NCBI GenBank assembly: GCA_937868765.1
Contig: CALMNL010000007.1
Span: 1 to 64,000 of the forward strand
Source of the DNA: an uncultured Desulfatitalea sp.
Lineage (GTDB): Bacteria; Desulfobacterota; Desulfobacteria; Desulfobacterales; Desulfosarcinaceae
Length of the DNA: 64,000 nt
Reading direction: 5' to 3'
Shown here piece by piece: positions 29,863 to 49,052 of this stretch. A model generated the notes under the pieces. That model was not told the DNA's origin. It ran no database searches and saw only the letters and a list, made by a program, of their open reading frames with translations. Each line of letters opens with the position of its first letter. Within the stretch, counting starts at the first letter, position 1. The translations under genes and the position numbers were made by a program.

Positions 29863-30102
29863 GGAGGCCGACCTTATCTTGTCATTATTTACATGATAGG
29901 CGTATTTTCGCCCTTGTCATGGTTCGGCAGCCATCAGGCTGTTTTCACCTCTATACTAAATCGTGTCGATCCAGAAACAGGAAAATTTGGCCGGGCTCAA
30001 GACGCGCGGAAAATTGACCGCGGGCTATTGGCTGATATTTCAGGGATCAAATTTTTCGCGCAATGGCCGATTTCGGCCAAATCGGTCATTGCTGGATGGG
30101 CT

Positions 30103-31833: not shown

Positions 31834-31868
31834 GCAGAAAGTCTCCTTTGGCATTGAACCCTAAAACA

Positions 31869-31889
31869 AACGTGCCTGTGCGGCACGTT
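31869..31889. repeat. Perfect inverted repeat between divergent genes
   Basis: AACGTGCC (31869-31876) and GGCACGTT (31882-31889) form a perfect 8-base stem with a 5-base loop, 36 bases upstream of the radical SAM start. No strong T-run follows, so an operator or leader hairpin is more likely than a terminator. Confidence 0.55.
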
Positions 31890-32016
31890 CGCGTTTATCG
31901 GTTGTATTAACGGTCCTAAGCTAATAAACTTCAAAAAAGAATGAAAGCACGATGGGGGTTGTGACAAAAGTTTTACAAATCGGTGCCGCTTCGCCCCCGC
32001 CAACAAGGCCGGTACA

Positions 32017-32973
32017 ATGTTTCGAGCCAAATGGTTTCTGCATCCCATTGCGATCTTCATCTTCTCCATCGTGGCCGTGGCCGCTTCTCTGGCCTTGTAC
32101 ATCTACTGGTATGTGGAAGTCAGTGCAGGACTCAAGGCCGTCATCCAGAGGGCCAATCTCGACCCCAACCAGGTGCTGGCCGCCCAGACCTGGGTGGTTA
32201 TTCTGGTGCTCTCGATTCTGGTGGGCATCATTCTGGTGGGTATCTTCACCATCTTCGTTTACAACCAGAAGACATTCCAGCTCCTGCGCCTGCAACGCAA
32301 TTTCATCAACAACTTCACCCACGAATTGAAGACACCAGTTACCTCCCTGAAGTTGTATCTGCAGACGCTGGAAAAGCATGATCTGAGCCGACCGGATCAG
32401 CTCAAATACATCGACTTCATGATCCAGGACGCCGACCGCCTGGCCGATCATATCAACCGCATCTTAAGCCTGGCCCGCATCGAGAGCAAAACGTATCGGG
32501 CCGAGTTCGTTTCCCAGGATCTGGTGGCGCTTCTAGAGCAGTTTCGTCGCAAGAGCAGCCATGTGTTCGGCGAAAACACGATCCACATTCGCCCCCCCTC
32601 CGGCCCGCCTTTTGTCTTTCCGGTCGATCTTTTCCTGTTTGAAATGCTGCTGATGAACCTGGTTGTCAACGCCGTCAAATACAACGATTCACCGAAGCCG
32701 CGGGTGGAGGTCACCTTTGTCCGCCACAAACGGCACCTTGCGATCCGTTTCGAAGACAACGGGATCGGGCTGCCGCGAAACGAACTGAAGAAGATCTTTC
32801 GGAAATTTTACCAGGTGGGCCGGTCGGAAAGCATGACTGCCCGGGGCAGCGGTCTGGGCCTGTACCTGGCGGACAGCATCGTGCGTCTTCATAAGGGCCG
32901 CATCCACGCACAGAGCAAGGGCCGCGGCATGGGGGCGGTCTTCACGGTCATGCTTCCCCAGACCGGCCGTTGA
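32017..32973 (+). CDS. Sensor histidine kinase of a two-component pair
   Basis: 318 residues. Two membrane helices (~8-32 and ~60-85) flank a short extracytoplasmic loop of about 30 residues. HisKA follows directly with His in NNFTHELKTPVTSLKLYL, then HATPase (IRFEDNGIGLPRNELKKIF, GSGLGLYLADSIV). There is no HAMP or PAS domain, so the short loop or membrane itself may sense. It is followed 25 bases later by its OmpR-type regulator, and an AAGG site precedes the ATG. Confidence 0.92.
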   Translation: MFRAKWFLHPIAIFIFSIVAVAASLALYIYWYVEVSAGLKAVIQRANLDPNQVLAAQTWVVILVLSILVGIILVGIFTIFVYNQKTFQLLRLQRNFINNFTHELKTPVTSLKLYLQTLEKHDLSRPDQLKYIDFMIQDADRLADHINRILSLARIESKTYRAEFVSQDLVALLEQFRRKSSHVFGENTIHIRPPSGPPFVFPVDLFLFEMLLMNLVVNAVKYNDSPKPRVEVTFVRHKRHLAIRFEDNGIGLPRNELKKIFRKFYQVGRSESMTARGSGLGLYLADSIVRLHKGRIHAQSKGRGMGAVFTVMLPQTGR

Positions 32974-32998
32974 GAAGGACACTGGGCAGGAATAACAG

Positions 32999-33733
32999 AT
33001 GGACCCCTCCGGCAAAAAGCGTATTCTGATCATCGAAGATGAGGCGCACATCGCCGAAGGCCTGGCCTTGAACCTGACCTTGAAAGGCTATGCCGCGCGC
33101 ACGGCCGCCAGCGGCATGGAAGGTCTTCAGGCTTGGAAAGCGTGGCGGCCGGACTTGATCGTGCTGGACATCATGCTGCCCGGCATGGACGGCTTCTCCG
33201 TGCTGCGCCACATCCGTCTGGATGATGAGCGCCTGCCGGTTCTGATCCTGTCGGCCAGGAGCGAATTGGAAGACAAGGTCAAAGGTTTTTCTTTCGGCGT
33301 CGACGATTACCTGGCCAAACCTTTTCATCTGGAAGAGTTTTTACTGCGGGTCGAGCGGCTGCTGTTCAGGGCGCCGCAACCAGGGCCGGGCCTGTACGGA
33401 GCGGGTGAGCGATCGGCCACGTTGCAGGTGTACACCTTCGGGGCCAACCGCATCGACTTCGGTGCGGCAACGGCCCAGGGCCGAAGGGGCAGGATCGATC
33501 TCACCGACCTGGAAGTCAAATTGCTCAAGCTCTTCGTCACCCATCGCGGCCGGCCCATTACACGCGGCCAACTGCTCGAGATCGGCTGGGGCTATGACCG
33601 GCGCACCCGTACCCGCACGGTGGATAACTTCATCGTCCGTTTTCGCAAATATTTCGAACCAGACCCCAGGCGGCCCATCTATTTCAAGAGTCTGCGTTCG
33701 GTGGGGTATGTGTTCGACCACCCGGGAAATTGA
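32999..33733 (+). CDS. OmpR/PhoB-type response regulator
   Basis: 244 residues. Receiver domain residues 8-120: IIEDE acidic pocket, phospho-acceptor Asp in LIVLDIMLPGMDG, Thr/Ser switch in LILSARSE, Lys in YLAKPF. The C-terminal winged helix (~145-240) has GRPITRGQLLEIGWGYD, the recognition-helix segment RTRTVDNFIVRFRKYF, and the wing SLRSVGYVF. It should regulate genes in response to the upstream kinase; the targets are not evident. A CAGGA site lies before the ATG. Confidence 0.95.
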   Translation: MDPSGKKRILIIEDEAHIAEGLALNLTLKGYAARTAASGMEGLQAWKAWRPDLIVLDIMLPGMDGFSVLRHIRLDDERLPVLILSARSELEDKVKGFSFGVDDYLAKPFHLEEFLLRVERLLFRAPQPGPGLYGAGERSATLQVYTFGANRIDFGAATAQGRRGRIDLTDLEVKLLKLFVTHRGRPITRGQLLEIGWGYDRRTRTRTVDNFIVRFRKYFEPDPRRPIYFKSLRSVGYVFDHPGN

Positions 33734-34265
33734 ATAGTGAGGCATCCGACATGCAGACCCTGGCAACCATCGCTATCGGATCGGTTTCGGTCGCCGAGAC
33801 GGAGATCGACCCTGGCGGCGAGATTCGGCAGCGCGCAGTCCACATGCATGGCGGTCACCGGCAGCGAAGCAGGGACCTGGCGAGCCGATATTCAAAATTT
33901 TAATGGCAAGTCGCATGGCGTATTGGATTAATCGCTTTGACATTTCATCGCAGCCTTCCTAAAAGTTGCCGCTGATACCTTGGTTCCGAATTGTTGATGA
34001 CCCTATAAAGATGAGTATGTACCGTACACACCGTTTCACAGGCTTTACCTGAGCAAGCGGCTGTTCGCAGCCCGGGCCGGCATGCACAGGTTTTGTCCGA
34101 GGATCGGTGCCCCTCTTCTGAGTCTTCTTTTCCAGCAAGTCCGCACCGCATCTGGGGTCAGATCGCTGAAGGTCAGATTCCAGTTCCCCTCTTCCTGGTC
34201 CGGTTTCAACTCGGCGCAGGCCGTTTGCCATAATCTCAGGCATATGCGCGAAAGGAGTTTTCCGG
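33734..34265. other. Long intergenic region before the Hdr-type operon
   Basis: 532 bases. A 50-codon frame at 33751-33903 (MQTLATIAIGSVSVAE..., GAGG upstream) is possible but unsupported. A candidate promoter lies at 33937. The remainder shows no family, repeat or terminator; its length suggests regulation of the operon that follows. Confidence 0.45.
33937..33965 (+). promoter_or_regulatory. Candidate sigma-70 promoter of the Hdr-type operon
   Basis: TTGACA (33937-33942), 17-base spacer, TAAAAG (33960-33965). The -35 is perfect; the -10 matches TATAAT at four positions. It would leave a leader of about 290 bases before the HdrD-like gene. Confidence 0.35.
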
Positions 34266-35597
34266 ATGTCCCAGCCCATCATTTTGAAAAAAGAGCACCG
34301 CGAACGTTTCATCGATAAGGTCAAACATCTGCTGCCCAACGGCGGCAACCTGAGCCTGTGCCTCACCTGCGGCGCCTGCGCCTCGGGCTGCCCGGCCACC
34401 GGCCTGGAAAACATGGACCCGCGCAAATTCATGCGCATGGTGGCCCTGGGCCTGGACCAGGAGATCACCAAGCACCCCTGGGTGTGGATGTGCTCCATGT
34501 GCACCCGCTGCACCTACGTCTGCCCCATGGAGATCAACATCGCCGGGCTGGTGTACGAGGCCCGCAAGCTGTGGCCCCGGGAGGAGCGGCCCAAGGGGAT
34601 TCTGGGGTCATGCGACATGGCCCTGCGCAACGAGAGCGGCAGCGCCATGGGCACACCGCCCGAGGATTTCACCTTCGTGGTGCAGGACGTGGTGGCCGAA
34701 GTGCGCGAATCCCAGCCCGGCTGGGAGAACCTCGACGCCCCGTTGGAAAAACAGGGCGCTCACTTCTTTCTCAGTCAGAACTCCCGCGAACCGGTCACCG
34801 AACCGGACGAAATGGTGCCATTGTGGAAGATCCTGCACCTGGCCGGCGCGGACTGGACCTACAGCAATCAGGCCTGGGGCGGTGAAAACTACTGCATGTT
34901 CCTGGCCGATGACGAGAATTGGAAGAAAATCGCCGACAACACACTCCAGCGGGCCGAGGCGTTGGGGTGCAAGGTTTATTTGAACACCGAGTGCGGCCAC
35001 TCCACTTTTTCGGTCTGGCAGGGCAACCGAAAGTTCGGCCTCAACACTTCCCTCGAGATCGCGCCCATGGTGGCTTACTACTACGAATGGATCAAGGCGG
35101 GCAAACTCAAGGTCAGCTCCGAATGGAACCGGGACTTGAAGCTCAAGTTCACGGTGCAGGACCCCTGCAACCAGATCCGCAAGAGTTACGGCGACGCCCA
35201 GGCCGACAAGATGCGCTACGTGGTCAAGGCATGTGTGGGCGAAGAGAATTTCATCGACATGGTCCCCAACAAGTCCAACAACTATTGCTGCGGCGGGGGC
35301 GGCGGCTATCTGCAATCGGGCTATACCGAGGCGCGCTTCAAGTACGGCAGGATCAAGTTCGACCAGATCATGGCCACCGGCGCCGATTACTGTCTGACCC
35401 CCTGCCACAACTGCCACGCCCAGATCCATGAACTGGCCCACCATTTCGGCGGCAAGTACCACGTGACCCACCTGTGGACCATCATCGCCCTCTCCCTGGG
35501 GGCGCTGGCCGAAAATGAACGGGAGTATCTGGGCGATGATCTGAAAGAGGTGTGGTTGCCCGGAGAACCCGGAACACCCGATCCGTTCAGGGGATAG
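34266..35597 (+). CDS. HdrD-like Fe-S electron-transfer subunit
   Basis: 443 residues. The N-terminus has two ferredoxin motifs: CLTCGACASGCPATG (C32, C35, C38, C42) and MCSMCTRCTYVCPM. The C-terminal CCG-type domain has DPCNQIRKSYGD, NNYCCGGGGGYLQSG and LTPCHNCHAQ, the cysteine set that holds the noncubane clusters in heterodisulfide-reductase HdrB/HdrD. It is a likely thiol/disulfide or electron-relay subunit working with the HdrA-like protein. GAAAGGAG precedes the ATG. It heads a tight operon with two MvhD-like genes and the tandem HdrA gene. Confidence 0.9.
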   Translation: MSQPIILKKEHRERFIDKVKHLLPNGGNLSLCLTCGACASGCPATGLENMDPRKFMRMVALGLDQEITKHPWVWMCSMCTRCTYVCPMEINIAGLVYEARKLWPREERPKGILGSCDMALRNESGSAMGTPPEDFTFVVQDVVAEVRESQPGWENLDAPLEKQGAHFFLSQNSREPVTEPDEMVPLWKILHLAGADWTYSNQAWGGENYCMFLADDENWKKIADNTLQRAEALGCKVYLNTECGHSTFSVWQGNRKFGLNTSLEIAPMVAYYYEWIKAGKLKVSSEWNRDLKLKFTVQDPCNQIRKSYGDAQADKMRYVVKACVGEENFIDMVPNKSNNYCCGGGGGYLQSGYTEARFKYGRIKFDQIMATGADYCLTPCHNCHAQIHELAHHFGGKYHVTHLWTIIALSLGALAENEREYLGDDLKEVWLPGEPGTPDPFRG

Positions 35598-35631
35598 GCT
35601 GATTTCAGAAGATGACCAAAGGAGCATATCG

Positions 35632-36096
35632 ATGACGGCGACCGCGGATAAAGACTTCGAGCCCCAGATACTGGCTTTTTGCTGCAAGTATTGCGCTTAC
35701 GCGGCCGGGGACCTGGCCGGCAGCATGCGGTTGAACTATCCGGCCAACGTCAAGATCATCCAGGTGCCCTGTACCGGCCGGGTGGACATGCTGCACCTGC
35801 TCAAGGCCATCGAGGAGGGGGCTGACGGCGTATACGTGGCCGGTTGCCTGGAAGGCGAATGTCACTTCCTCGAAGGCAATTTGAAGACCAAACGCAAGGT
35901 GGCGGCGGTGCGCAAACTGCTTGCCGAGGCCGGAATGGCGCCCGAACGGGTGCGGATGTTCAATCTCAGTTCCGCCATGGGACCGCGCTTTGCCGAGATC
36001 GCCACCGAGATGACCGCGGCCGTCCGCGCTCTCGGACCGACGCCCATCCCGCGTATCGATCTGCGCGCAGCGGCACAAGTCCGGGAACAGACCTGA
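35632..36096 (+). CDS. MvhD-like iron-sulfur subunit (first copy)
   Basis: 154 residues. LAFCCKYCAYAAGDLAG at the start and VPCTGRVD plus GCLEGECHFLEGN further on are the MvhD [2Fe-2S] signature. MvhD passes electrons between a hydrogenase or other input module and HdrA. No hydrogenase is in the window, so the electron donor must be something else. AAAGGAG precedes the ATG. It is paired with a second copy 31 bases downstream; the two are clearly paralogous but diverged. Confidence 0.9.
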   Translation: MTATADKDFEPQILAFCCKYCAYAAGDLAGSMRLNYPANVKIIQVPCTGRVDMLHLLKAIEEGADGVYVAGCLEGECHFLEGNLKTKRKVAAVRKLLAEAGMAPERVRMFNLSSAMGPRFAEIATEMTAAVRALGPTPIPRIDLRAAAQVREQT

Positions 36097-36127
36097 ACTT
36101 TATACGGCACCGAGGAGAAGCACTTCC

Positions 36128-36574
36128 ATGGAATGGGAGCCCAAAATCATCGCCTTTTTCTGCAACTGGTGTACCTACGGCGCCGCCGACCTGGCCGGCG
36201 TGAGCCGCCTGCAATATCCACCCAACATCCGCGTGGTCCGCGTGCCGTGCAGCGGCCGCATCAGCCCCAAGTTCCTGCTTTCGGCCCTGCGCAACGGCGC
36301 CGACGGCATCTGGGTATCGGGTTGCCACCCGGGGGATTGCCACTATATCGAGGGCAATTTTTACGCCCGCCGCAGGTTCGCCCTGCTCGACAACCTGTTG
36401 GCCTACATGGGGCTGGAACCGGGTCGGATTCACTTTTCCTGGATCTCTTCGGCCGAATCCACCAAGTTCGCCGCCACGGCCCAGAAGGTGACCGAAGCCA
36501 TCCTGGCCCTGGGACCGGCACGGCAGTTCATCCGGACCCCCGTCGCCGTGGAGGAAAAGGCCGAGGCGGTCTAA
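36128..36574 (+). CDS. MvhD-like iron-sulfur subunit (second copy)
   Basis: 148 residues. FFCNWCTYGAADLAGVSR, VPCSGRISPKF and GCHPGDCHYIEGNFYARR give the complete MvhD cysteine set, here closer to methanogen MvhD (CNWC..ADLAG). The C-terminal half runs ...GRIHFSWISSAESTKFAATA. Two MvhD-like subunits next to a two-flavin HdrA suggest that each flavin half has its own Fe-S partner. GGAG precedes the ATG. Confidence 0.92.
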   Translation: MEWEPKIIAFFCNWCTYGAADLAGVSRLQYPPNIRVVRVPCSGRISPKFLLSALRNGADGIWVSGCHPGDCHYIEGNFYARRRFALLDNLLAYMGLEPGRIHFSWISSAESTKFAATAQKVTEAILALGPARQFIRTPVAVEEKAEAV

Positions 36575-36593
36575 GCGGAAGGAGAATTTGATC

Positions 36594-39500
36594 ATGACCC
36601 AACCCATTGGTGCCGTTCTGGTCGCCGGCGGCGGTATCGCCGGCATTCAGGCGGCTTTGGATCTGGCCAATTCGGGCTATAAAGTCATCCTGGTGGAACG
36701 CAAGGCGGCCATCGGCGGCGTCATGGCCATGTTGGACAAGACCTTTCCCACCAACGACTGCGCCATGTGCATCATGAGTCCCAAGCTGGTGGAGGTGGGC
36801 CGCCACGCCAATATCGAAATCCTCACCATGACCGATATCGCGTCCATCGACGGGGTCAAAGGCGATTTCAGCGTGACCGTGCGTCGCAGGCCGCGTTATG
36901 TGGATCTGGACAAGTGTATCGCCTGCGGGGTCTGTGCCGAGAAATGCCCCAAAAAAGTGGAAGATGCCTTCAACCAGGGGTTGATCAAGCGCAAGGCCGC
37001 CTATGTGCTCTATCCCCAGGCCGTGCCGCTCAAGTACGCCATCGACGAAGCGCATTGCATCTACCTGCAAAAGGGCAAGTGCGGGGCCTGCGCCAAGGTG
37101 TGCCCGGCCGGCGCCATCCGGCTGGATGAAAAGGAAACCCGGCAGACGCTCAGGGTAGGGGCAGTGATTCTGGCGCCCGGCTATCAGGCCTACAATCCTT
37201 CGGGGTTGGACAACCTCGCCTATGGCACCTCTCCGGATGTAATGACCTCTCTGGAGTTCGAGCGCATCCTCTCGGCCTCCGGGCCCTATGGCGGCCACCT
37301 GATGTGCCCCTCGGACCGGCGCGAGCCCAGGCGCATCGCCTGGCTGCAATGCGTCGGCTCCCGGGACCAGAACCGCTGCGGCCATTTTTACTGCTCGGCG
37401 GTGTGCTGCATGTATGCCATCAAGCAGGCCATCATCGCCAAGGAGCATTCCGAGCATCCCCTGGACTGCACCATTTTCTACATGGACATGCGTACCCACG
37501 GCAAAGGGTTCGAGGATTGCTTCAACGAAGCCCGCGACAAGCACGGTGTGCGTTTCCAGCGCACCCGTGTCCACACGGTCCTGCCCGACAGGGAGAGCGG
37601 CCGGCTGTCCCTGCGGTATCTCGGCGAAGCCGGCAGTGTGCTGGTGGAGCAGTTCGATCTGGTCATCCTCTCCGTGGGGCTGGAAAGCCCACCTGCGCTG
37701 CGCCGGCTGGCACAGAACCTGGATATCGAGCTGAGTCCCGGCGGCTTCGCCCGCGTCGACGATTTCAGACCCACGGCCACTTCCCGGGATGGCATCTATG
37801 TCTGCGGCGCCTTCGCCGGGCCCAAGGACATTCCTCAGTCGGTCATCGAGGCCGGCAGCGCGGCCCTGTGCGCCGGCGCCGATCTTTCCGCCGGCCGCCA
37901 CAGCCTGACCGTGCGTGCCGCGGCGCCCGCCGAGCGCGACGTGCGCGGGGAATCGCCCCGGGTGGGGGTCTTTATCTGCCATTGCGGCATCAACATCGGC
38001 GGCGTGGTGGACGTACCCGCCGTGCGCGATTTCGCCCGCACCTTGCCCAACGTGGTTTTTGTGGCCGACAACATGTACTCCTGCTCCCAGGACACCCAGA
38101 ACATCATCAGCGGCAAGATCGAAGCAGAGCGATTGAACCGTATCGTGGTGGCGGCCTGCTCGCCCAAGACCCACGAGCCGTTGTTCCAGGAAACCCTTAC
38201 GGCGGCCGGGCTCAACAAGTACCTGCTGGAGTTCGTCAACATCCGCAACCAGGACTCCTGGGTGCACATGGAACAACCCGCGCGCGCCACGGCCAAGGCC
38301 AAGGACCTGGTGCGCATGGCCGTGGCCAAGGTTTTACGCCTTTCCCCGCTGAAAGAGGAGATGCTGACCATCTCCCCGCGCGCCATGGTGGTAGGTGGCG
38401 GCGTTTCCGGCATGGCCGCGGCCCTGGCCCTTTCGCGCCAGGGGTATCCGGCCGTGATCGTCGAGCGCGAGGGCGCTTTGGGGGGCCAGGCGCGTTATCT
38501 GCACAAGACCGCCAAGGGGGACCCCATCGAGGCGCGCCTAGCAGACCTCATCACCCAGGTCGAGGCCGATCCGGGCATCAACGTACAGCTCAACGCCACG
38601 CTGACCAAGGTGGAGGGTTTCGTCGGCAATTTCAAATCCACGGTGGCCGCGAATGGCAATGAAACCGTCATCGACCACGGAGTCACGGTGATCGCCAGCG
38701 GCGCCCGGGAGTCACGCCCCAGCGAATATCTCTTCGGGCAGGACGAGCGGGTCATCACCGGCCTGGAACTGGATCGGCGCATGAAGGCCGGCGACAGACG
38801 ACTGGCCCAGGCCCGGACCGCGGTGTTCATTCAGTGCGTGGGCTCGCGCGAACCCGAACGGCCTTACTGCTCGCGCATCTGCTGCACCCATTCGATCCTG
38901 GCCGCATTGCATCTAAAGGAGCTCAATCCGGAGATGGCGGTGTTCGTCCTCTACCGCGACATTCGCAGTTACGGCGAGCGGGAGGCGCTCTATCGACAGG
39001 CACGCGAAAAGGGCGTCATCTTCATCCGCTACGACCGCGACCACAAACCCCAGGTCCAGGCCACCCCCGAGGCCTTGGAGATAACGGTCATGGATCACGT
39101 GCTGCGCCAGCCGCTGGTGATCCCGGCGGACCTGCTCACCCTGGCTGCGGCCATCGTGCCATATCGCGATGAACAACTGGCGCAGTTCTTCAAAGTGCCC
39201 ATGAACGCCGACGGCTTCTTTGTGGAAGCCCATGTGAAGCTCAACCCCTGCGCGTTTGCCACCGATGGCGTTTTCCTCTGCGGCCTGGCACATTATCCCA
39301 AGCCCATCGACGAATCCATCGCCCAGGCCCAGGCGGCGGCTTCGGCCGCCACCGTGCTGCTGGCCCAGCAGACCATTCGCACCAGCGGCACCACGGCCCG
39401 GGCGGAACCGCGCATCTGTTCGGGATGCGGGGTGTGCGTGAGCCTGTGCCCTTACAATGCTCCCTCTTTGAGGACCCAGGGACCGATGGCCGGCAGAGCC

Positions 39501-39620
39501 GAAATCAATCCGGCCCTGTGCAAGGGGTGCGGCCTGTGCGTGGCCTCCTGCCGTTCGGGCGCATTGCAGTTGCAGGGATTCGATGACGGGCAGATCCTGG
39601 CCATGATCGAGGCGGCGTAG
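36594..39620 (+). CDS. Tandem HdrA-type flavoprotein (two FAD domains, multiple Fe-S clusters)
   Basis: 1008 residues. First half (~1-440): FAD site GGGIAGIQAALDL, the HdrA-specific FPTNDCAMCIMSPKL, two ferredoxin motifs (CIACGVCAEKCPKK; CGACAKVCPAG) and LQCVGSRDQ. Second half (~450-1000): an HdrA N-terminal domain (VFICHCGINIGGVVD, AACSPKTHEPLFQ), a second FAD site (GGGVSGMAAALALSRQG), FIQCVGSREPERPYC, and terminal CSGCGVCVSLCP and CKGCGLCVASCR. It is thus roughly two HdrA copies fused. HdrA flavins bifurcate electrons in methanogens; BamE-type fusions are used with benzoyl-CoA reductase. The start at 36594 is chosen from AAGGAG spacing. Confidence 0.92.
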   Translation: MTQPIGAVLVAGGGIAGIQAALDLANSGYKVILVERKAAIGGVMAMLDKTFPTNDCAMCIMSPKLVEVGRHANIEILTMTDIASIDGVKGDFSVTVRRRPRYVDLDKCIACGVCAEKCPKKVEDAFNQGLIKRKAAYVLYPQAVPLKYAIDEAHCIYLQKGKCGACAKVCPAGAIRLDEKETRQTLRVGAVILAPGYQAYNPSGLDNLAYGTSPDVMTSLEFERILSASGPYGGHLMCPSDRREPRRIAWLQCVGSRDQNRCGHFYCSAVCCMYAIKQAIIAKEHSEHPLDCTIFYMDMRTHGKGFEDCFNEARDKHGVRFQRTRVHTVLPDRESGRLSLRYLGEAGSVLVEQFDLVILSVGLESPPALRRLAQNLDIELSPGGFARVDDFRPTATSRDGIYVCGAFAGPKDIPQSVIEAGSAALCAGADLSAGRHSLTVRAAAPAERDVRGESPRVGVFICHCGINIGGVVDVPAVRDFARTLPNVVFVADNMYSCSQDTQNIISGKIEAERLNRIVVAACSPKTHEPLFQETLTAAGLNKYLLEFVNIRNQDSWVHMEQPARATAKAKDLVRMAVAKVLRLSPLKEEMLTISPRAMVVGGGVSGMAAALALSRQGYPAVIVEREGALGGQARYLHKTAKGDPIEARLADLITQVEADPGINVQLNATLTKVEGFVGNFKSTVAANGNETVIDHGVTVIASGARESRPSEYLFGQDERVITGLELDRRMKAGDRRLAQARTAVFIQCVGSREPERPYCSRICCTHSILAALHLKELNPEMAVFVLYRDIRSYGEREALYRQAREKGVIFIRYDRDHKPQVQATPEALEITVMDHVLRQPLVIPADLLTLAAAIVPYRDEQLAQFFKVPMNADGFFVEAHVKLNPCAFATDGVFLCGLAHYPKPIDESIAQAQAAASAATVLLAQQTIRTSGTTARAEPRICSGCGVCVSLCPYNAPSLRTQGPMAGRAEINPALCKGCGLCVASCRSGALQLQGFDDGQILAMIEAA

Positions 39621-39654
39621 AAGCAGGCCGAAGGCTGAAACAGCAGGAGCAATC

Positions 39655-40161
39655 ATGTTGCAGTGCATTCATCTGGACCCGCGCGTCGAGAAGTGCCTGG
39701 AAACGCTGCGGCGCTCAGGAAAAAAGGCAGCCCTGGCCGCGGCCAAGGCCGCAGAGATCATCGAGCGCCTGCGCAACGGCGGCGTGATTCCCGACCGTGT
39801 GGGCACCGTGACCAAGCATGGCGAGCTGCGCATCAAGGGGGTCATGAAGTACGACCTGGGCAGCGGCTACCGCCTGATCACCTACAAGCAGGGCCCCCGC
39901 TTTTTTCTACTCTATGCCGGAAGTCACGACGATTGTCACCGCTGGATCGAGAACAACCGCGAGTTGACCGTGGATCAGATCCTGGAGCGCTGCGTGGTGC
40001 TGCCGACCCAATTGTCGGAAGCGGCCTGCCCGACCCATGAAGATGACGGCCATGGCGGAGAGGAAGAATTCGACCCCTTGGCCGAGATCTCCGATCGGGA
40101 TCTGCGCCGGGTGTTTTGCGGTTTGGTGGGAGTCCCCGCTGCGCGGGGAGTGGAAAGCTGA
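39655..40161 (+). CDS. RelE/ParE-like fold protein within the Hdr operon
   Basis: 168 residues. The middle reads LRIKGVMKYDLGSGYRLITYKQGPRFFLLYAGSHDDCHRWIENN, resembling the strand core of RelE/HigB-type proteins, where the last strand commonly reads (F/L)(L/V)..GSH(D/E)(D/E). The N-terminus is helical and Lys/Arg-rich; the C-terminal 45 residues are acidic. No antitoxin gene accompanies it; it lies 34 bases after the HdrA gene with a good AGGAG site. A regulatory or RNA-binding job in the operon is possible; toxin function is only inferred from the fold. Confidence 0.6.
   Translation: MLQCIHLDPRVEKCLETLRRSGKKAALAAAKAAEIIERLRNGGVIPDRVGTVTKHGELRIKGVMKYDLGSGYRLITYKQGPRFFLLYAGSHDDCHRWIENNRELTVDQILERCVVLPTQLSEAACPTHEDDGHGGEEEFDPLAEISDRDLRRVFCGLVGVPAARGVES
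40133..40149. repeat. GC-rich hairpin, upstream member of a pair
   Basis: TCCCCGC (40133-40139) pairs with GCGGGGA (40143-40149) around a TGC loop, inside the last codons of the RelE-like gene. A near-identical element occurs at 40552, so the two flank the HesB-like gene. Confidence 0.5.
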
Positions 40162-40218
40162 ACAAATAGTCGCCATTTCAGGCCCTTCAATTGAACTCAA
40201 CGTCAAGGAGCGGAACGC

Positions 40219-40530
40219 ATGCTGAATGTCACTGAAAAAGCGCAAGCGCAAATTGCGGATTATTTCAAAGAGAACGAAATCAAACCCATCCGGGTCTTTC
40301 TGACCAACGGCTGCGGCGGCCGCCAGATCGCCCTGGCCCTGGATGCGGCCCGGCCCGAGGATGTGATCTTCGAATTTGCCGGCATCCAATACCTCGTGGA
40401 AAAATCCTTCCTGGCCCAGGCCCAGCCCATCGAGATCGATTTCGCCGGCCACGGCTTCAAAGTCTCCTCGTCCCTGCAACCGGGGGGCGGCTGTGGCGGG
40501 TGTGGATCGTCGGAGAGCTGCTGTTCGTAA
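40219..40530 (+). CDS. HesB/IscA-like small protein with Cys-rich tail
   Basis: 103 residues. The fold matches IscA/HesB (MLNVTEKAQAQIADYF; IRVFLTNGCGGRQIALAL; VEKSFLAQAQPIEIDFAG). The classical A-type scaffold cysteines are rearranged: only NGCGG survives mid-chain, and the C-terminus is GGGCGGCGSSESCCS with extra Cys. It may be a specialised Fe-S carrier for the large Fe-S enzymes next door. It has a GGAG site, and is flanked by two similar hairpins. Confidence 0.8.
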   Translation: MLNVTEKAQAQIADYFKENEIKPIRVFLTNGCGGRQIALALDAARPEDVIFEFAGIQYLVEKSFLAQAQPIEIDFAGHGFKVSSSLQPGGGCGGCGSSESCCS

Positions 40531-40551
40531 TCAAGCGTACCCTTTGCCTGC

Positions 40552-40572
40552 ATTCCCCCTGCGCGGGGGGAT
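40552..40572. repeat. GC-rich hairpin, downstream member of a pair
   Basis: ATTCCCCC (40552-40559) pairs with GGGGGGAT (40565-40572), one wobble, around TGCGC. It lies 21 bases past the HesB-like stop and lacks a T-run, so a classic terminator is unlikely; it may end or punctuate the first operon. Confidence 0.5.
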
Positions 40573-40770
40573 CCGGCGCACCGTTTCTCCAGCAAATCAT
40601 TGGATTTCGCTATGGCGAATGATCCGCAGATCTAGATTATCGATTTGATCTATTTCCGCTATCCATGAAATAGAAGCCGGGTCAAAGCAGGCCGCGCGAC
40701 CGTAAAAAAACATGCACCATGGACGAGGCTGAGAGACTGCGGACAATTCCAATTTTTCCGGAGGTGACAA

Positions 40771-42051
40771 ATGAGCGACGCATACCGTTCCATGTGGAAA
40801 GAGTTAGGACTTGATCTGGAAGCTCACGACATGCTGCTGGGGGTTCTGGGCAACGCCTACCAAGAGATTTATCTATCCCAAAAAGAGCGCCCCGAGGGCA
40901 TGGGTTATTTCGACTTCGTCATGAGCGAGGTGCACGGTCTGCGCATCAAGGAACTGCTGGACGAAAAGGCCGCCGGCCGCAAGATCGTCGGCTCCTACTG
41001 CGTATTTGTGCCCGAGGAGATCGCACTGGCCGCCAACGCCACCCTGGTGGGGTTGTGCTCGGGCGCCGATTTCGCCACCGAAGAAGTGGAAAAGCTTCTG
41101 CCGCGCAACACCTGCGCCCTGATCAAGTCGGCCTTCGGGTTCAAGCTGGGCAAGGTGTGCCCCTACCTGGAAAGCGCCGATATGATCGTGGGCGAGAACA
41201 CCTGCGACGGCAAGAAGAAAGCTTACGAGAGCCTGGGGCATCTGGTTGACAACCTTTACGTGATGGACCTGCCGCAAGTGAAGTCGGAAAACGGCCGCGC
41301 GCTGCTTCGGGCCGAGTATTTCCGCTTCAAGGCGGCCGTGGAAAAGCTCACCGGCAGCGTGATCACCACCGAATCCCTGAAAGCCGCCATCCAGACGGTT
41401 AACGCCAAACGCAAGGCGATCCATCGCCTGTCCGCCCTGCGCGAGGCCGACCCGGCGCCTATTTCCGGCTTGGATGCGCTTTTGGCCAACCAGGTGTTTT
41501 TCTATGATAACCCGGCGCGCTTCACCGCCTCGGTGAACAAAATCTGCGACGAACTGGAAAAGCGCATCGAGGCCAGGCAAGGAGTCTTCCCCGCCAAGAC
41601 CCCACGCATTCTCATCTCCGGCTGCCCCCAGGCCGTGCCCAATTGGAAGCTGCCCTTCATCGTGGAGGGTTCCGGCGCGGTCATTGTGGGCGAAGAGTCG
41701 TGCGTAGGCGAGCGCGGCACCCGCAATTTAACTTCCGAATCCGGCCAGACAGTGGATGAAATGATGGCGGCCATCGTGGATCGATATTTCCAGGTCGATT
41801 GCGCCATCTTCACCCCCAACGCCGAGCGGCTGGCCCACATCGAAGAGATGGCGGCCGCCTACAGGGCCGACGGGGTGATCCATTACGGCCTGCAGTTCTG
41901 CCAGCCCTATCTCATGGAGGCCATTCCGGTGGAAAAGGCCCTGGAGAAGAAGAACATCCCCTGCCTGCGCATCGAGACCGATTACAGCATGGAAGACGCG
42001 GGCCAATTGAAAACCCGCATCGAAGCCTTCGTGGAGCAGCTCAAGGGGTAA
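40771..42051 (+). CDS. HgdB/YjiM-family double-cubane-type reductase (first)
   Basis: 426 residues of the 2-hydroxyacyl-CoA dehydratase/BcrB family (COG1775). Cys115 in RNTCALIKSAFGF, Cys130 in GKVCPYLE and Cys145 in GENTCDGKKK match the cluster-ligand set of the YjiM/DCCP subgroup, whose members carry a double-cubane [8Fe-9S] cluster and reduce small molecules such as acetylene in vitro. Benzoyl-CoA reductase or dehydratase activity is possible but the motif favours DCCP. GGAGG precedes the start. Followed 3 bases later by its activase. Natural substrate unknown. Confidence 0.85.
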   Translation: MSDAYRSMWKELGLDLEAHDMLLGVLGNAYQEIYLSQKERPEGMGYFDFVMSEVHGLRIKELLDEKAAGRKIVGSYCVFVPEEIALAANATLVGLCSGADFATEEVEKLLPRNTCALIKSAFGFKLGKVCPYLESADMIVGENTCDGKKKAYESLGHLVDNLYVMDLPQVKSENGRALLRAEYFRFKAAVEKLTGSVITTESLKAAIQTVNAKRKAIHRLSALREADPAPISGLDALLANQVFFYDNPARFTASVNKICDELEKRIEARQGVFPAKTPRILISGCPQAVPNWKLPFIVEGSGAVIVGEESCVGERGTRNLTSESGQTVDEMMAAIVDRYFQVDCAIFTPNAERLAHIEEMAAAYRADGVIHYGLQFCQPYLMEAIPVEKALEKKNIPCLRIETDYSMEDAGQLKTRIEAFVEQLKG

Positions 42052-42054
42052 TCG

Positions 42055-42819
42055 ATGGAGAGGCGCTTCGCGGGTATCGACATCGGCTCGCGCACCATCG
42101 AGCTGGTGGTGGTCGATGGAAAAGGCAGGGTCGTAAAATCCCTCAAAGCCGACACCGGCTTCGATCCCATGGCCGAAGCCAGGCGGCTGATGGACGGTGT
42201 GGGCTACGACGGCATCATGGCCACCGGCTATGGCCGCAACCTGTTCGAGATCGCCTTCGAAGCGCCCACCGTGACCGAGATCAAGGCCCATGCCCGGGGG
42301 GCACGGGCCTTTTTTGCGCAAGCTACGAGCGTTTTGGATATCGGTGGCCAGGACAGCAAGGCCATCGCCCTCTTTGCCAACGGTAAAGTGAAGAAGTTCG
42401 AGATGAACGACCGCTGCGCCGCGGGGACCGGCAAGTTCCTGGAGATCATGGCGCGCACCCTGGGCTTCGATATCGAAGCCTTCGGTGACGAAGCGTTGCG
42501 GGCTGAAAAAGAGACTGCCATCTCCAGTATGTGCACGGTTTTCGCCGAATCGGAGGTCACTTCCCTCATCGCCAAGGGCCAGGACCGCCGGGAGATCGCC
42601 CTGGGGGTGCACGCCAGCGTCATGCGCCGGGTGGCGGCCATGCTCCAGCGCGCGGCCCCCGAGGGGGATGTCGTCTTTACAGGCGGTGTGGCCAACAATG
42701 GCTGTCTGCGCTCGCTCCTGGCGCAAAAACTGGGACGCAAAGTGCGCCATTCGCCCCAGGCCCAATTCGCGGGGGCATTGGGGGCGGCGCTAATTGCCAT
42801 GGAAGGAAAAGGCCGATGA
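42055..42819 (+). CDS. ASKHA-family ATPase activase (HgdC/YjiL/BcrA-like)
   Basis: 254 residues, actin-like ATPase: phosphate-1 FAGIDIGSRTIELVVV, phosphate-2 VLDIGGQDSKAIAL, adenosine VVFTGGVANNGCLRSLL. Two cysteines, C121 in NDRCAAGTGKFLE and C160 in SSMCTVFAESE, bridge a [4Fe-4S] cluster across the homodimer. These proteins use two ATP to drop electron potential and inject one electron into an HgdB-type partner. It lies between two such partners and overlaps the second by four bases, so a single activase may serve both. An AAGGGG site precedes the ATG. Confidence 0.93.
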   Translation: MERRFAGIDIGSRTIELVVVDGKGRVVKSLKADTGFDPMAEARRLMDGVGYDGIMATGYGRNLFEIAFEAPTVTEIKAHARGARAFFAQATSVLDIGGQDSKAIALFANGKVKKFEMNDRCAAGTGKFLEIMARTLGFDIEAFGDEALRAEKETAISSMCTVFAESEVTSLIAKGQDRREIALGVHASVMRRVAAMLQRAAPEGDVVFTGGVANNGCLRSLLAQKLGRKVRHSPQAQFAGALGAALIAMEGKGR

Positions 42820-43967
42820 ACATCTCTCCGCTGATGGATGACGGCTATGCCGGCGAGCCGGCCAAACGGGTCCTGAACTACATGCAAGGCCGCAAGCAGA
42901 AGGGCGACCCCATTGTGGGGATCTACTGCGGCTATGCACCCATCGAGCTGATCCAGGCCATGGGGTTGGTGCCGGCCGTGCTGTGCGCGTTTTCCAAGGT
43001 ACCTATCCCAGCGGCCGAGACCGTGCTGCCGGCCAATTTGTGCCCCCTGATCAAATCCAGCTATGGTTTCATCATCGAAGGCACCTGTCCTTTTTACGCC
43101 ATGTCCCAGGCGGTTATCGCCGAGACCACCTGCGACGGGAAGAAGAAGATGTTCGAGCTCATCGCCGACATCAAACCTACCCACGTGATGGATCTGCCCC
43201 AGGTGCCGGACGATCGGGAGGCCCGGCGCAACTGGAAGCGGATGATCCTCAAGCTGCAAGGCTTTCTGGAACGCACCTTCGATCGCGAGGCCGATGAGAA
43301 AAGAATCGAAGCAGCCCTGAAATCGTCCAATCGTAAAAACGCCCTGATGCGCAAGCTCTTCGACTATGCGGCCCTGATCCCGCCGGTGCTGCATTGGAAA
43401 GAGATGTACGACGTGGGTTTCCTGGCCCTGCCTGCCACGGGCGAAGAGATGGCGCCAATCTTGGAAGTCCTGTTGGAGAAGTTGGAGCAGCGTGTGCGGG
43501 AGGGAACCCATTTCGGTAAACCGGGAGCGCCACGGGTCCTGGTGAGCGGATGCCCGGTGGGCGGGGATGCCACCAAGATTTTCAAGGTGATCGAGGAGGC
43601 TGGCGGTGTGGTGGTGGCCCCTGATGCCTGCACCGGCATGAAGGCGTTTGCAGGTGTCTTTGAAGAGGACAGCGGCGATCCCATCGCCGCCATCGCCGAC
43701 CGATACCTCGACATTCCCTGTGCCTGCATGACGCCCAATAATCGCCGCCTGACCGATCTGACGGCCATGATCGATCGCTTCAAGCCGGATGCCGTGGTCG
43801 ATTTTGTATTGCAGGCGTGTCACGGCTACAGCGTGGAGTCCTACAAGATCGGCCGGCATGTCCAAGAGACCCATGGGCTGCCTTTCCTCAAAGTGGAGAC
43901 CGATTACGCCGACGGCGACACCGGGCAACTCAGGACCCGCATCGAGGCGCTTTTCGAAAGCATCTGA
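42816..43967 (+). CDS. YjiM-like double-cubane-type reductase (second)
   Basis: 383 residues, the usual length for the YjiM group. The ligand set is clear: C76 in NLCPLIKSSYGF, C91 in GTCPFY, C106 in ETTCDGKKKMFE, with SGCPVGGDATKIF and LQACHGYSVESYKI further on. The closeness to E. coli YjiM in these motifs makes a double-cubane reductase more likely than a true dehydratase subunit. The start overlaps the activase stop (ATGA), implying coupled translation. It may form a hetero-complex with the 40771 protein or be a separate enzyme. Confidence 0.87.
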   Translation: MNISPLMDDGYAGEPAKRVLNYMQGRKQKGDPIVGIYCGYAPIELIQAMGLVPAVLCAFSKVPIPAAETVLPANLCPLIKSSYGFIIEGTCPFYAMSQAVIAETTCDGKKKMFELIADIKPTHVMDLPQVPDDREARRNWKRMILKLQGFLERTFDREADEKRIEAALKSSNRKNALMRKLFDYAALIPPVLHWKEMYDVGFLALPATGEEMAPILEVLLEKLEQRVREGTHFGKPGAPRVLVSGCPVGGDATKIFKVIEEAGGVVVAPDACTGMKAFAGVFEEDSGDPIAAIADRYLDIPCACMTPNNRRLTDLTAMIDRFKPDAVVDFVLQACHGYSVESYKIGRHVQETHGLPFLKVETDYADGDTGQLRTRIEALFESI

Positions 43968-43991
43968 ACGGGTGACGGCGGAGATCGGCCC

Positions 43992-44195
43992 ATGGAGCTC
44001 GTTTTTGTGTGCCCGCAAGCCCGGGCGGCATTTCGCAGCGAGAAGTACCAGATCGTGGAGAACCGGGGCGTGCGGGCCGGCGCCGATGGCCAGAAGATTC
44101 TGGACGCCAAGGTGGCGCTGACCGAAGCGTGCCCCTTCTGCGGTCAGAACCATGTTTATCCTGCCGATGAATTGGCTTGCCCATTCGGATCATAG
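43992..44195 (+). CDS. Small CPFCG zinc-ribbon-like protein
   Basis: 67 residues: MELVFVCPQARAAFRSEKYQ, then KVALTEACPFCGQNHVYPADELACPF. The CPxCG and C-P-F pairs look like a small zinc ribbon or rubredoxin-type metal site. It follows the second reductase by 24 bases with GGAG eight bases before the ATG, so it is probably the last gene of the reductase operon. No family name is known to me. Confidence 0.65.
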   Translation: MELVFVCPQARAAFRSEKYQIVENRGVRAGADGQKILDAKVALTEACPFCGQNHVYPADELACPFGS

Positions 44196-44442
44196 GGCGT
44201 GTCCAGTCGCCTCGCTGAAAATGTCGCATCCCCATTGTCTCAAAATGTCCGCCGCCGGACCGGCCCTCCCCGCCGGCTTAAAGGCGCACAGATACCCTGT
44301 TGGATTCAGAGCGGGTGGAAATCGAGCGCGATAAGTGTTAAGGACACTCAGCGGCCGGTTGGGCAGCACCGAACACATTTGATCTTGTGCGGGCTCGCTT
44401 TAGACGCAAATCCGGTAAAATTGGAGAAAGGGGGGCGGGACA

Positions 44443-45000
44443 ATGCAAATCGTTGTGCCTCAGGCCATGTTCTTTACCAAAGGGGTGGGCTACCACCGCA
44501 ACCGGTTGCAGAGTTTCGAACTGGCCCTGCGCGACGCGGGCATCGAAATGTGCAATCTGGTGACCATATCGAGCATTTTCCCGCCGGATTGCAAAATTAT
44601 TTCCAAAGAAGAAGGCTTGAAGCGCCTGAAGCCAGGCCAGATCACATTTGTGGTCCTCGCCAGGGAAGACAGCAACGAACCCAGCCGATTGTTGACGGCC
44701 GCCATCGGCCTGGCCCAGCCCAAAATCAAGAAGCAATACGGATATATTTCCGAGCATCACGGCTTCGGCCAGAACGCGCGACAGTCGGGAGATTTCGCCG
44801 AGGACCTGGCCGCCACCATGCTGGCTTCGACCCTGGGTATCGAACTCGATCCCGATAAGGCCTGGGACGAGCGCAAGAAGCATTACGTGGCCGGCAGGAA
44901 CCGGCAGTTCGTCAGCCGCAGCATTGCCAAGGCGGCGCACGGGCATAAGGACGGCCTGTGGACCACGGTGCTGGCCTGCGCTGTCATGCTCTGCGATTGA
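44443..45000 (+). CDS. pdaD: Pyruvoyl-dependent arginine decarboxylase
   Basis: 185 residues. It is made as a proenzyme and self-cleaves at a Ser-Ser bond to form a pyruvoyl cofactor; the site is [13 protein letters not shown] with S43-S44. The family segment [20 protein letters not shown] follows. It converts arginine to agmatine for polyamine synthesis. AAAGGGGGG precedes the ATG. Its last 17 bases overlap the end of the convergent rhombosortase-like gene. Length fits the family (~160-195). Confidence 0.93.
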
Positions 45001-45709
45001 TTGGCCCGCAGGCGCAGCGGTTCGCCAATGCTTTGCGGGTATCGGTTGGCCCGGATTTCTTATGCCGCGCGCTTGAGAAGCAAATTCCGATCTGTGCCAC
45101 CAGATAAACCAGCCCCACAAGAAGGCCGATGAGATGGGCCAGGGGAGTAAACCCCCCCATGTCGCCCAACGTGTCGGTGGCGAAGAAAGGAACCTTGAGG
45201 GCCGTTTCATAGGCGATCTTGAAGAGATGGACGCCGAAAACGGCGCAATAGATGACTTTGAGGCTTTTCTTCAGGCTCGGATCCAAGACATACAGGCCTG
45301 CGCCCAGAACCAACTGGGTGTTGATCAATCCCGATATTCCCCGGTAGGCAACCAGATCCCTTTGAAATAGCAGCAACCCCAGGCTGATGGCGACCGCCGC
45401 TACGGTCAACGCCTGCGTGTACCGGCGGCCGAGCTTCTGTTCGAAGACGATTCCCTGGGCGATGAAGACCGAGGTGTCGAGATAGAAGTGCGCGGCGCTC
45501 CAATGCACCAGGTGACCGGTGAAGAGGCGCCAGATTTCTCCCCGCAGGATTGCCGTCCGATCGAACTGTATCCAGGCGCACAGGGATTGAAACCACGGGG
45601 CCAGGGCATCTCCCAGGAGGAATCCGGCATTGATGAAGCACAACACGAGGCCTAACCAGAGGGTGATCTTGAACTGACCCAAGCGGTTTTTGAGTGCATC
45701 GAAAGTCAT
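44984..45709 (-). CDS. Rhombosortase-like rhomboid protease
   Basis: 241 residues with about six membrane helices. Rhomboid catalytic dyad: S126 in [10 protein letters not shown] and H192 in [10 protein letters not shown]. The second-helix box [20 protein letters not shown] resembles the WRL.TGHLVH..W.H motif of rhombosortases, the rhomboid subfamily that cuts GlyGly-CTERM proteins. The next gene upstream on the same strand (84 bases) ends in a GlyGly-CTERM-like tail, which supports the call. Prediction: it releases or re-anchors that protein at the membrane. Confidence 0.8.
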
Positions 45710-45793
45710 GGGCGTTTCTCTTCTTGCCGGGTCGTTAGGGTGCTTTCGCGGCGACCTGGCCCGTCGCCGCGAAAGTTTCGGTGTGGTCGCAGG

Positions 45794-48022: not shown

Positions 48023-48083
48023 GGGATCTCCTTTCTGAACATGTTGTCTGCACGGGGAACCGGTCTGCCCGTACAAAAGCGCA

Positions 48084-48109
48084 AAAAGCGGGCCGCAGGG
48101 CCCGCTTTT
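48084..48109. terminator. Perfect bidirectional terminator hairpin
   Basis: AAAAGCGGGCC (48084-48094) pairs with GGCCCGCTTTT (48099-48109) around a GCAG loop, an 11-base perfect stem with T-runs on both strands. On the minus strand it ends transcription from the QueG-like gene before the VIT-VWA gene. Confidence 0.88.
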
Positions 48110-48196
48110 ATTCAACGTATTGATAATTTATTGTCTTATTCGATGTGGGAGGGGGAGTGGCCGTTGCGAACGACGGGGAGATATATGCATTTTATG

Positions 48197-48220
48197 TCCA
48201 TATGGTGATCACCGAATGGA
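48197..48220. repeat. Palindrome downstream of the QueG-like gene
   Basis: TCCAT (48197) and ATGGA (ending 48220) flank the perfect palindrome GGTGATCACC, with a two-base mismatch on each side. A GC-rich stem (48243-48251 with 48262-48270) lies next to it. Both are in the 3' spacer between two leftward genes; function unknown. Confidence 0.5.
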
Positions 48221-48311
48221 TATATGCGTGAGATTTCCATGCAGCCGCGCCGGGGGCGACCGCGGCGCGGCCGTCTTCCGGTGTCGATCCTCGGTGCCCG
48301 CCGCAAAGGGG

Positions 48312-49052
48312 CTATCGATTGTTCGGGCACATCTTCAGGCATTCATCGCACGCCAGCCAGTAGTCGTAGCCGGCCGTGTTGATCACCCGTTCGATGTGCT
48401 TCAGTCCGTTGGCATCCTTGAGCGCCAGGGGATAGATGGCGTGCTTGATGGTATGGCCCAGGCACTTCATTTTCTCGAAGCGGCCTTCGGGTGCAAAAGC
48501 GCCGGCCGGGCAGCTTTGCTGGCAAGCCCGGCATTTGGGCGGGCACGGATCGCTTTCGATCAGCGGGTCGCCGGGGATCGCCGCTTCGGTCACCACGGCC
48601 GCCAGGCGCAGCCGCGACCCGAATGTGGGATGATACATCTGACCGCTGCGGCCGAAGGCGCCCAGGCCGGCCCGCACCGCGGCATGCTTGAGCGAAATGA
48701 GCCCCCACGGCTCGGCGCCGTGGAAGGCCATGGGCGCATAACTGGGGATCATCACGGCGTGGTGGCGCCCCTGGGACTCGATGAAGTTGCACAACCCCAG
48801 GCTGATTTCATCCAGCTGACGGTAGACCGTGTGGTAGGCACGGTGAAGGGTGTGCAGGTTGTAGCCCGGCGATGTGAGGACCCCGCGCGGGACTTCGATC
48901 CCCAGGACGATTACCGTTTGCGCGTTCTTGCAGACCGCGGCGGGATGATGGGCTTCGGGGGCGTCGCCGAAACGCGCCACCGGTGCAAAGCCCACCGCCG
49001 ATACGCGATCTTCCAGATAGTGGGTGATGGTTGCCTTCAAATCGTTCTGCAT
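48312..49052 (-). CDS. QueG-like Fe-S protein (short form)
   Basis: 246 residues from MQNDLKATITHYLEDR (AAGGAAG upstream). It has the QueG core (VGFAPVARFG near the start; GSRLRLAAVVTEAAIPGD) and a double [4Fe-4S] motif PPKCRACQQSCPAGAF with a second set ACDECLKMCPNN at the very end. True epoxyqueuosine reductase is ~380 residues and has a B12-binding and HEAT-repeat part that is absent here. It is a related reductase of unknown substrate. It lies 28 bases after the MarR gene on the same strand. Confidence 0.75.
   Translation of the reverse strand: MQNDLKATITHYLEDRVSAVGFAPVARFGDAPEAHHPAAVCKNAQTVIVLGIEVPRGVLTSPGYNLHTLHRAYHTVYRQLDEISLGLCNFIESQGRHHAVMIPSYAPMAFHGAEPWGLISLKHAAVRAGLGAFGRSGQMYHPTFGSRLRLAAVVTEAAIPGDPLIESDPCPPKCRACQQSCPAGAFAPEGRFEKMKCLGHTIKHAIYPLALKDANGLKHIERVINTAGYDYWLACDECLKMCPNNR

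Follow-up and report, generated by a model that had tools for sequence, protein, structure and literature searches.

A double-cubane-cluster reductase and Hdr gene block in an uncultured Desulfatitalea and its possible role in selenium assimilation

Double-cubane-cluster proteins (DCCPs) are reductases for which ATP-driven electron transfer by an activase is established. The member with a solved structure (Protein Data Bank entries 6eno and 7yyl) comes from Carboxydothermus hydrogenoformans (PMC7306483). The covered part of a 2025 paper (PMC11971306) described DCCP reactions as unclear in their physiological relevance. The present analysis concerns a stretch of 64,000 nucleotides (the window), the first 64 kb of contig C7 in the 5.36 Mb genome of an uncultured Desulfatitalea sp., and within it a gene block at positions 34266 to 44195 in which two DCCP reductases (DCCP1 and DCCP2) and a shared activase follow Hdr-type electron carriers. 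An original prediction from the sequence had placed ten genes here, and all ten were found again when coordinates, strand and family matches were checked, all on the plus strand; the set is closed by an eleventh open reading frame for a protein of 67 residues.

The block resembles the solved DCCP in its full-length match, its conserved cysteines and its adjoining activase, whereas it has two diverged reductase copies per activase, an attached Hdr module and, in relatives, a selenium neighbourhood. In E. coli, a plasmid record carrying the yji region shows yjiM-yjiL followed by ytiA (DUF3343), with DCCP and activase in a row as in the block and the DUF3343 protein added; unlike the block, the 17 kb covered there contain no Hdr genes. 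The soluble HdrABC-MvhADG and Fdh-Hdr complexes (e.g. 5odc, 7bkb) share the HdrA flavin domain, MvhD and HdrC/HdrB-type domains with the block, and formate dehydrogenase (Fdh) is found in close relatives. Unlike these complexes, the block is without MvhAG, and its HdrA is a tandem protein that lacks the first 140 model positions and is dispensable across linked loci. BamDEF of the class II benzoyl-CoA reductase have an HdrA/MvhD-like make-up. Electron transfer to a low-potential reductase is predicted for BamDEF in the covered part of PMC5109826; this likens them to the block by description, and the Bam system differs in being ATP-independent.

A connection to selenium has been touched upon before. 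Lin et al. 2015 (PMC5322559) listed an HgdB-type subunit and activase among the STRING partners of selenium genes in Slackia, with no discussion of them in the parts covered. In the available text of a 2023 preprint (PMC10418091), a dicubane cluster protein was 'provisionally linked to selenium metabolism'. The Type 1 mlp clusters described there also contain a DCCP with its reductase and carry sel genes; unlike the block, they are corrinoid methyltransferase clusters, commonest in Firmicutes, and show no Hdr genes in the passages covered. Among the literature matches listed, no text joined Hdr proteins to DCCPs or described an isoform with cysteine (Cys) in place of selenocysteine (Sec).

The reading favoured here, with a probability of roughly 55%, is that the block encodes a low-potential reductase system that is driven by ATP, draws on a Sec-free electron line and works in selenium assimilation. 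The only selenium mark inside the window is the subfamily of its HesB-like protein (IscA_HesB_Se); the case for selenium is drawn from relatives. Core selenium genes (SelD, SelB, YedE, YedF, DUF3343 and LysR_Se, at fixed thresholds) were sought around DCCPs in 80 named loci, the best 80 of 472 relatives with a DCCP1 75–92% identical, and in 60 phylum loci, the best match of each of the 60 top-scoring among 92 genomes over the cut-off from outside the order. At least one core selenium gene was present in 33 of the named loci and at least two in 21; the corresponding numbers for the phylum loci were 21 and 10. The original prediction had missed this context. Prominent among the recurrent neighbours of DCCP1 were YedE (487.8 bits, cut-off 200), YedF (210.7, cut-off 110), SelD (354.5, cut-off 125), the LysR_Sec_metab regulator (288.9, cut-off 250), DUF3343 (PF11823), SelB (by Pfam domains) and a NifS-like desulfurase below its own cut-off. 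SelD was found in 11 of the 60 phylum loci, with 0.33 expected, and these 11 come from seven GTDB families, one of which contributes four.

Within the order, a set of 146 genomes was searched, of which 41 contain DCCP1-type genes (at least 59% identity, or more than 70% for contig-end fragments, a cut made by hand from the 56 genomes listed with a DCCP). By hand count, at least 11 of these 56 genomes have SelD no more than 20 kb from a listed DCCP, and YedE occurs in 28 of the 41 DCCP1 genomes and in 29 of the 105 others (p = 8e-6). Genes of the DCCP2 type are likewise found near SelD (L170, L172, L173). On a tree of 95 DCCPs, drawn from the phylum loci, roughly one quarter of the named loci and a small number of other loci, with E. 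coli labelled by hand and some placements unsure because of long branches, the selenium-linked rows require at least 13 changes, which means that the linkage is spread over the family. Of the 14 named genomes used as controls, only E. coli and M. jannaschii exceeded the DCCP cut-off, and only these two exceeded that for SelD.

The two closest relatives illustrate the arrangement. Locus L085 (DCCP1 92% identical) reads HdrD-MvhD-MvhD-miniHdrA-RelE-HdrA-HesB-FdhA-DCCP1-activase-67aa-YedE-TusA-DUF3343, with DCCP2 absent, and L086 (89%, start cut) reads HdrA-RelE-HesB-C_GCAxxG-FdhA-SelB-(418-residue open reading frame)-DCCP1-activase-DCCP2-SelD-YedF. In both, a formate dehydrogenase alpha subunit of 931–983 residues lies between HesB and DCCP1 (L085:7053-10004 and L086:3835-6630; TIGR01591 845.9 and 806.8 bits, cut-off 666.25). 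A search of the window for Fdh gave zero matches, and a gap of 240 bp between the Hdr and DCCP blocks occupies the place of FdhA. Similar Fdh genes near DCCP or HdrD were seen in L050, L073, L099 and L088, the last with two copies, one of which has two stops, giving six loci in total among those searched. Judging from this gene order, formate dehydrogenase likely feeds the Hdr/DCCP line in the closest relatives. In the covered table of PMC9068703, yjiM and yjiL are among the changed genes for YgfI, alongside formate hydrogenlyase genes; as support for a formate link this is weak at best.

A second line of evidence is Cys at positions where related proteins have Sec. At residue 243 of HdrD (NTE[U]GH), the window copy has Cys, and TGA was found in the three in-genome paralogues that were read, of six other matches. 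Among 29 HdrD copies with at least 55% identity and within 12 kb of DCCP1, six of which repeat a genome, 27 have Cys, one has Sec (L101) and one has Phe (L142); L101 also contains a Cys copy, which lies nearer to DCCP1. Since the Cys-type HdrD is largely one clade, these counts stand for few evolutionary events. The active-site residue of the cluster Fdh is likewise Cys in all seven copies compared (at least 44% identity), where the solved 9t1s chain shows X, read as Sec. A Cys-for-Sec exchange in HdrD would be expected if HdrD were needed in selenium assimilation.

The linkage of the Hdr and reductase blocks, on whose conservation the original prediction had depended, is conserved in relatives. 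There are several HdrD-family proteins per genome, and most of the listed ones have one in-frame TGA. Among the top 24 HdrD matches listed, 23, one per genome, are without TGA, a number to be read as at least 23 as lower-scoring Cys copies, e.g. in G035, were not counted. DCCP1 is present in 19 of these 23 genomes (among matches listed; Fisher 3e-9, 146 genomes). The distance between the two genes is 15 kb or less in 10 of the 19, with 0.12 expected; such p-values overstate the evidence because related species are not independent. With six genome repeats removed and the window included, 26 distinct loci have HdrD within 12 kb of DCCP1. Near partners in these are the RelE-like gene (21 loci), HesB (13) and MvhD (12). 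HdrA is full-length in five, a mini-HdrA of 110–150 residues in six, about 320 residues long in one (L133, near the contig end) and absent from 14, of which eight show 4 kb or more of sequence to either side of HdrD and the others are cut short. From these counts, the steady unit is HdrD, the RelE-like protein, DCCP1 and the activase, and the flavoprotein is optional. In some loci, HdrD directly adjoins DCCP1-activase (L054, L159). A second HdrD-like gene, about 31% identical, stands beside DCCP/activase in eight further loci (L134, L213, L216, L219, L223, L225, L227, L228), accompanied by MvhD in L225, L227 and L228, so the pairing of Hdr and DCCP may have arisen more than once.

Within the block, the HdrD-like gene product is an Hdr-type Fe-S protein as had been proposed, with one CCG match only, and looks nearer to DsrK/TmcB than to methanogen HdrD; its nearest NCBIfam models are TmcB, HmcF and DsrK, all well under cut-off. 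Both MvhD-like proteins match the FlpD/MvhD family. The HdrA of 1008 residues shows the two flavin domains expected, with Rossmann FAD starts at about residues 10–47 and 599–725 and a C-terminal pair of 4Fe-4S sites, and its match begins at position 141 of the HdrA2 model. The partners of a bifurcating Hdr, namely an HdrA flavoprotein with HdrB/C-type and MvhD proteins, are therefore all present in the window. Of the complete path from bifurcation to ATP-driven reduction that was originally claimed, the Hdr-DCCP association is supported, as all 26 loci have an Hdr-type carrier no farther than 12 kb from DCCP1. Its completeness is not supported: full HdrA is limited to five of these loci, and no electron-input enzyme (MvhAG, Fdh or FlxAB) is among the products of 34266-44195.

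Some relatives have, beside the RelE-like gene, a mini-HdrA of about 110–130 residues, either instead of full HdrA or together with it (L046:10332-10715, L048, L085:2608-3006, L090, L096); that of L046 contains a single Rossmann start and a single Fer4. In-frame TAA was seen in HdrD genes that belong to the Cys type or are close to it in G011:C347 and G097:C70, and G069:C2 has both TGA and TAA; pseudogenes or errors of assembly may account for these copies.

DCCP1 and DCCP2 both score above the curated cut-off of the double-cubane model NF040772, 350 bits. DCCP1 aligns over its whole length with 6eno/7yyl (E = 4e-136), and its cysteines 77, 96, 115, 130, 145, 311, 344 and 377 align with cysteines of the solved protein; the same eight are conserved in DCCP2. 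The TCDGKKK motif described earlier was found in DCCP1, DCCP2 and the solved DCCP, and the single ASKHA activase gene indeed lies between the two copies. From family and conserved cysteines, DCCP1 is inferred to carry an [8Fe-9S] double-cubane cluster, and DCCP2 probably does so as well. Neither reductase reached the equivalog cut-offs for dehydratases or benzoyl-CoA reductases (HadC, BzdN, BcrC); with DCCP1 at 102.4 for HadC (cut-off 700), 76.2 for BzdN (453.8) and 54.4 for BcrC (421.15), the scores do not place it among the 2-hydroxyacyl-CoA dehydratases or class I benzoyl-CoA reductases. In the gammaproteobacterium Shewanella fodinae (L129), whose genome has SelD, a DCCP1 80% identical is found with an adjoining activase and was probably acquired from Desulfobacterota-like bacteria.

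Three smaller proteins accompany the reductases. In an alignment of 30 homologues, the RelE-like protein, encoded between HdrA and HesB, shows a core of the RelE type and a C-terminal tail that is conserved, and the element order of a predicted model (mean pLDDT 78) was read as ParE/RelE. Its profile gave no match under E 0.03 in the Protein Data Bank, and its ParE_like score is 19 bits (Pfam gathering score 24.4). A role as toxin was set aside, as the protein is below this cut-off and has a single match in each of 28 of the 146 genomes; of these 28, 21 have DCCP1. It is regarded as a new selenium/HdrD-associated protein, and its gene stands no more than a few kb from SelD in G033, G127 and G132. 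In two of these genomes, which have no DCCP1-type match, the distance is about 3 kb (G033:C220, G132:C184). The HesB-like label was appropriate and can be made more exact, as the protein passes the selenium-type model NF038090. Homologues of the 67-residue protein adjoin SelD, YedE or DCCP elsewhere (L085, L104, L170, L174, L175), and in L175, which is from G126, the homologue stands beside SelD-YedF.

Table 1. Features of the block and its upstream leader, with positions in the window
Feature	Position	Strand	Basis
45-base conserved leader, 5' of hdrD, no assigned function	34047..34091	+	conserved in L085, L090, L096, L103
HdrD-like Fe-S protein, Cys243	34266..35597	+	Fer4 pair, one Pfam CCG match
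MvhD/FlpD-like protein 1	35632..36096	+	PF02662 164 bits
MvhD/FlpD-like protein 2	36128..36574	+	PF02662 178 bits
Tandem HdrA-like flavoprotein, 1008 residues counted from ATG at 36594	36594..39620	+	two FAD domains, Fer4 sites
RelE/ParE-like protein	39655..40161	+	homologue alignment, predicted model, neighbourhoods
IscA/HesB-like protein, family NF038090 IscA_HesB_Se	40219..40530	+	94.8 bits, cut-off 85
Double-cubane-cluster reductase DCCP1	40771..42051	+	NF040772 468 bits; full-length match 6eno/7yyl
ASKHA activase (DCCP reductase)	42055..42819	+	TIGR00241 221.6 bits, cut-off 125.4
Double-cubane-cluster reductase DCCP2	42816..43967	+	NF040772 441.6 bits
67-residue protein	43992..44195	+	homologues in L085, L104, L170, L174, L175

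The activase and DCCP2 reading frames overlap by four bases. The leader 5' of hdrD is nearly invariant in four relatives while its flanks diverge, and it is a single copy in the genome in a search allowing up to three mismatches; it has ACCTG/CAGGT ends and a possible GCUG-YUYG-CNGC hairpin. Rfam gave zero matches on 30000-48500 (E up to 1), so a known riboswitch explains neither this leader nor the 240-bp gap. Promoter and terminator scans gave a signal no higher than shuffles, and an alignment of 13 sequences showed no shared leader 5' of DCCP1. Judged by reading only, the block is flanked by a radical SAM protein (30103-31854), a histidine kinase/response regulator pair directly 5' of hdrD (32017-33733), a pyruvoyl arginine decarboxylase-like gene (44443-45000) and a VIT/vWA protein on the minus strand (45794-48115).

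When neighbour clusters were ordered by number of loci, DCCP/activase, an ABC ATPase, DCCP2 and three Pst-like ABC transporter parts came first, followed by YedE, HdrD, DUF3343, a 290-residue protein, TusA, SelD and YedF. The protein of about 290 residues, with a weak Carb_kinase match, accompanies the YedE-TusA-DUF3343 block in 16 of the 80 named loci (e.g. L059:11434-12339). The PstSCAB-like ABC transporter is a frequent DCCP neighbour (L088:16991-19522, L093:13461-16733, L060, L080) and could be an oxyanion importer, perhaps for selenite. Beside Hdr/DCCP genes, a C_GCAxxG_C_C (seleno)protein (L086:3019-3606) and a rhodanese with a partial match to the selenoprotein TsoB (L091:8867-9397) were also seen.

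To our knowledge, the route by which anaerobes obtain selenide for SelD is incompletely known. The gene content, the conserved linkage, the selenium neighbourhoods and the Cys in place of Sec are observed. As far as substrate, direction of electron flow and cluster content of the block can be inferred, electrons would pass from a source, in relatives formate via the Fdh of the cluster, to HdrD/MvhD, which in the source genome would be joined by the tandem HdrA as electron supply. HdrD/MvhD would hand them to the shared activase, which would pump them with ATP into the double-cubane clusters, and these would reduce oxidised selenium species to selenide or carrier-bound reduced selenium. HesB-like, DUF3343 or TusA-type carriers would then deliver the reduced selenium to SelD. 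HdrD and the linked Fdh are Sec-free (Cys) isoforms, as would be expected if both have to act before selenocysteine is available. A bolder proposal is tentative, possible rather than probable: DCCPs would be the ATP-driven enzyme dedicated to selenium reduction that has been missing from accounts of anaerobes, supplying SelD, and in Desulfobacterota they would be powered by a wholly Sec-free line (Cys Fdh, HdrA/MvhD, Cys HdrD), so that assimilation would precede any selenoprotein, with the RelE-like and 67-residue proteins as two further unrecognised selenium proteins.

Several observations weigh against a role in selenium assimilation. SelD, SelB, YedE, YedF and DUF3343 were searched in the window and none was found; in the source genome, SelD-YedF are on contig C6 (L165), apart from the window, and YedE was not found above cut-off. 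A core selenium gene was not seen in 47 of the 80 named and 39 of the 60 phylum loci, many of them short, and the phylum loci represent the highest-scoring DCCPs, not a random draw. ABC transporters, Pst-like ones included, outrank selenium genes as DCCP neighbours. Co-occurrence across the phylum is weak, with SelD in 95 of 99 DCCP genomes versus 176 of 198 (p = 0.03), and has little profile power because SelD is nearly universal; four phylum genomes have DCCP without SelD. In Gammaproteobacteria, DCCP is found in 3 of 168, and two of these three are without SelD and belong to a divergent branch; on the tree, the divergent branch holds L267, L268, L274 and L197, near which no core selenium genes were seen. 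The surroundings of the Sulfurovum DCCP show zero selenium genes, and the 31 kb seen around the Acetoanaerobium DCCP contain no clear core selenium gene, with a cysteine desulfurase 3 kb off and a weak YedE-like match 13 kb off. No selenium genes were found near DCCP1 in G126 (L103), a genome of the same genus. Furthermore, YedF, TusA and DUF3343 could handle sulfur.

An explanation with a substrate other than selenium, in line with the original prediction, appears unlikely. HdrA would bifurcate electrons to HdrD/MvhD, and activase and DCCPs would reduce a non-selenium organic or small inorganic substrate. This would agree with the Hdr-DCCP linkage, with Fdh in the cluster of close relatives and with the unclear role of the characterised DCCP in the covered part of PMC11971306. 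However, full HdrA is too rare in the linked loci, and the identified recurrent neighbours are ABC-transport, selenium and Hdr genes, not catabolic ones, with many smaller clusters unassigned.

Another explanation, considered quite unlikely, is that the substrate of DCCP is persulfide or polysulfide held by TusA/DUF3343-type carriers and that the selenium neighbours reflect the overlap between sulfur and selenium carriers. The families of TusA, DUF3343 (Pfam 'Se/S carrier'), rhodanese and NifS are not confined to selenium, but SelD, SelB and LysR_Sec_metab are selenium families, and they adjoin DCCP; the Cys-for-Sec exchange in linked HdrD also speaks for selenium. Finally, it is improbable that HdrD opens the S-Se bond of a selenium compound in the way of DsrK, which is thought to act on DsrC trisulfide, and that DCCP has a separate job: this would suit the nearest models of HdrD (TmcB/HmcF/DsrK) and the HdrD and RelE-like genes found apart from DCCP1 in G115, G045 and G096, but in E. 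coli and several phylum loci, L207, L209, L249, L254 and L256 among them, DCCP is accompanied by selenium genes while an HdrD match is absent.

With selenium assimilation as the favoured role, the gene neighbourhoods tie the role of DCCPs, whose iron-sulfur cluster is among the most unusual in biology, to the question of how selenide is made. A provisional link between DCCP and selenium is already stated in the available part of the preprint PMC10418091. Both questions are testable, down to yjiM-yjiL-ytiA of E. coli. The Cys-for-Sec isoforms suggest a logic in which the enzymes of selenium assimilation would avoid selenium themselves.

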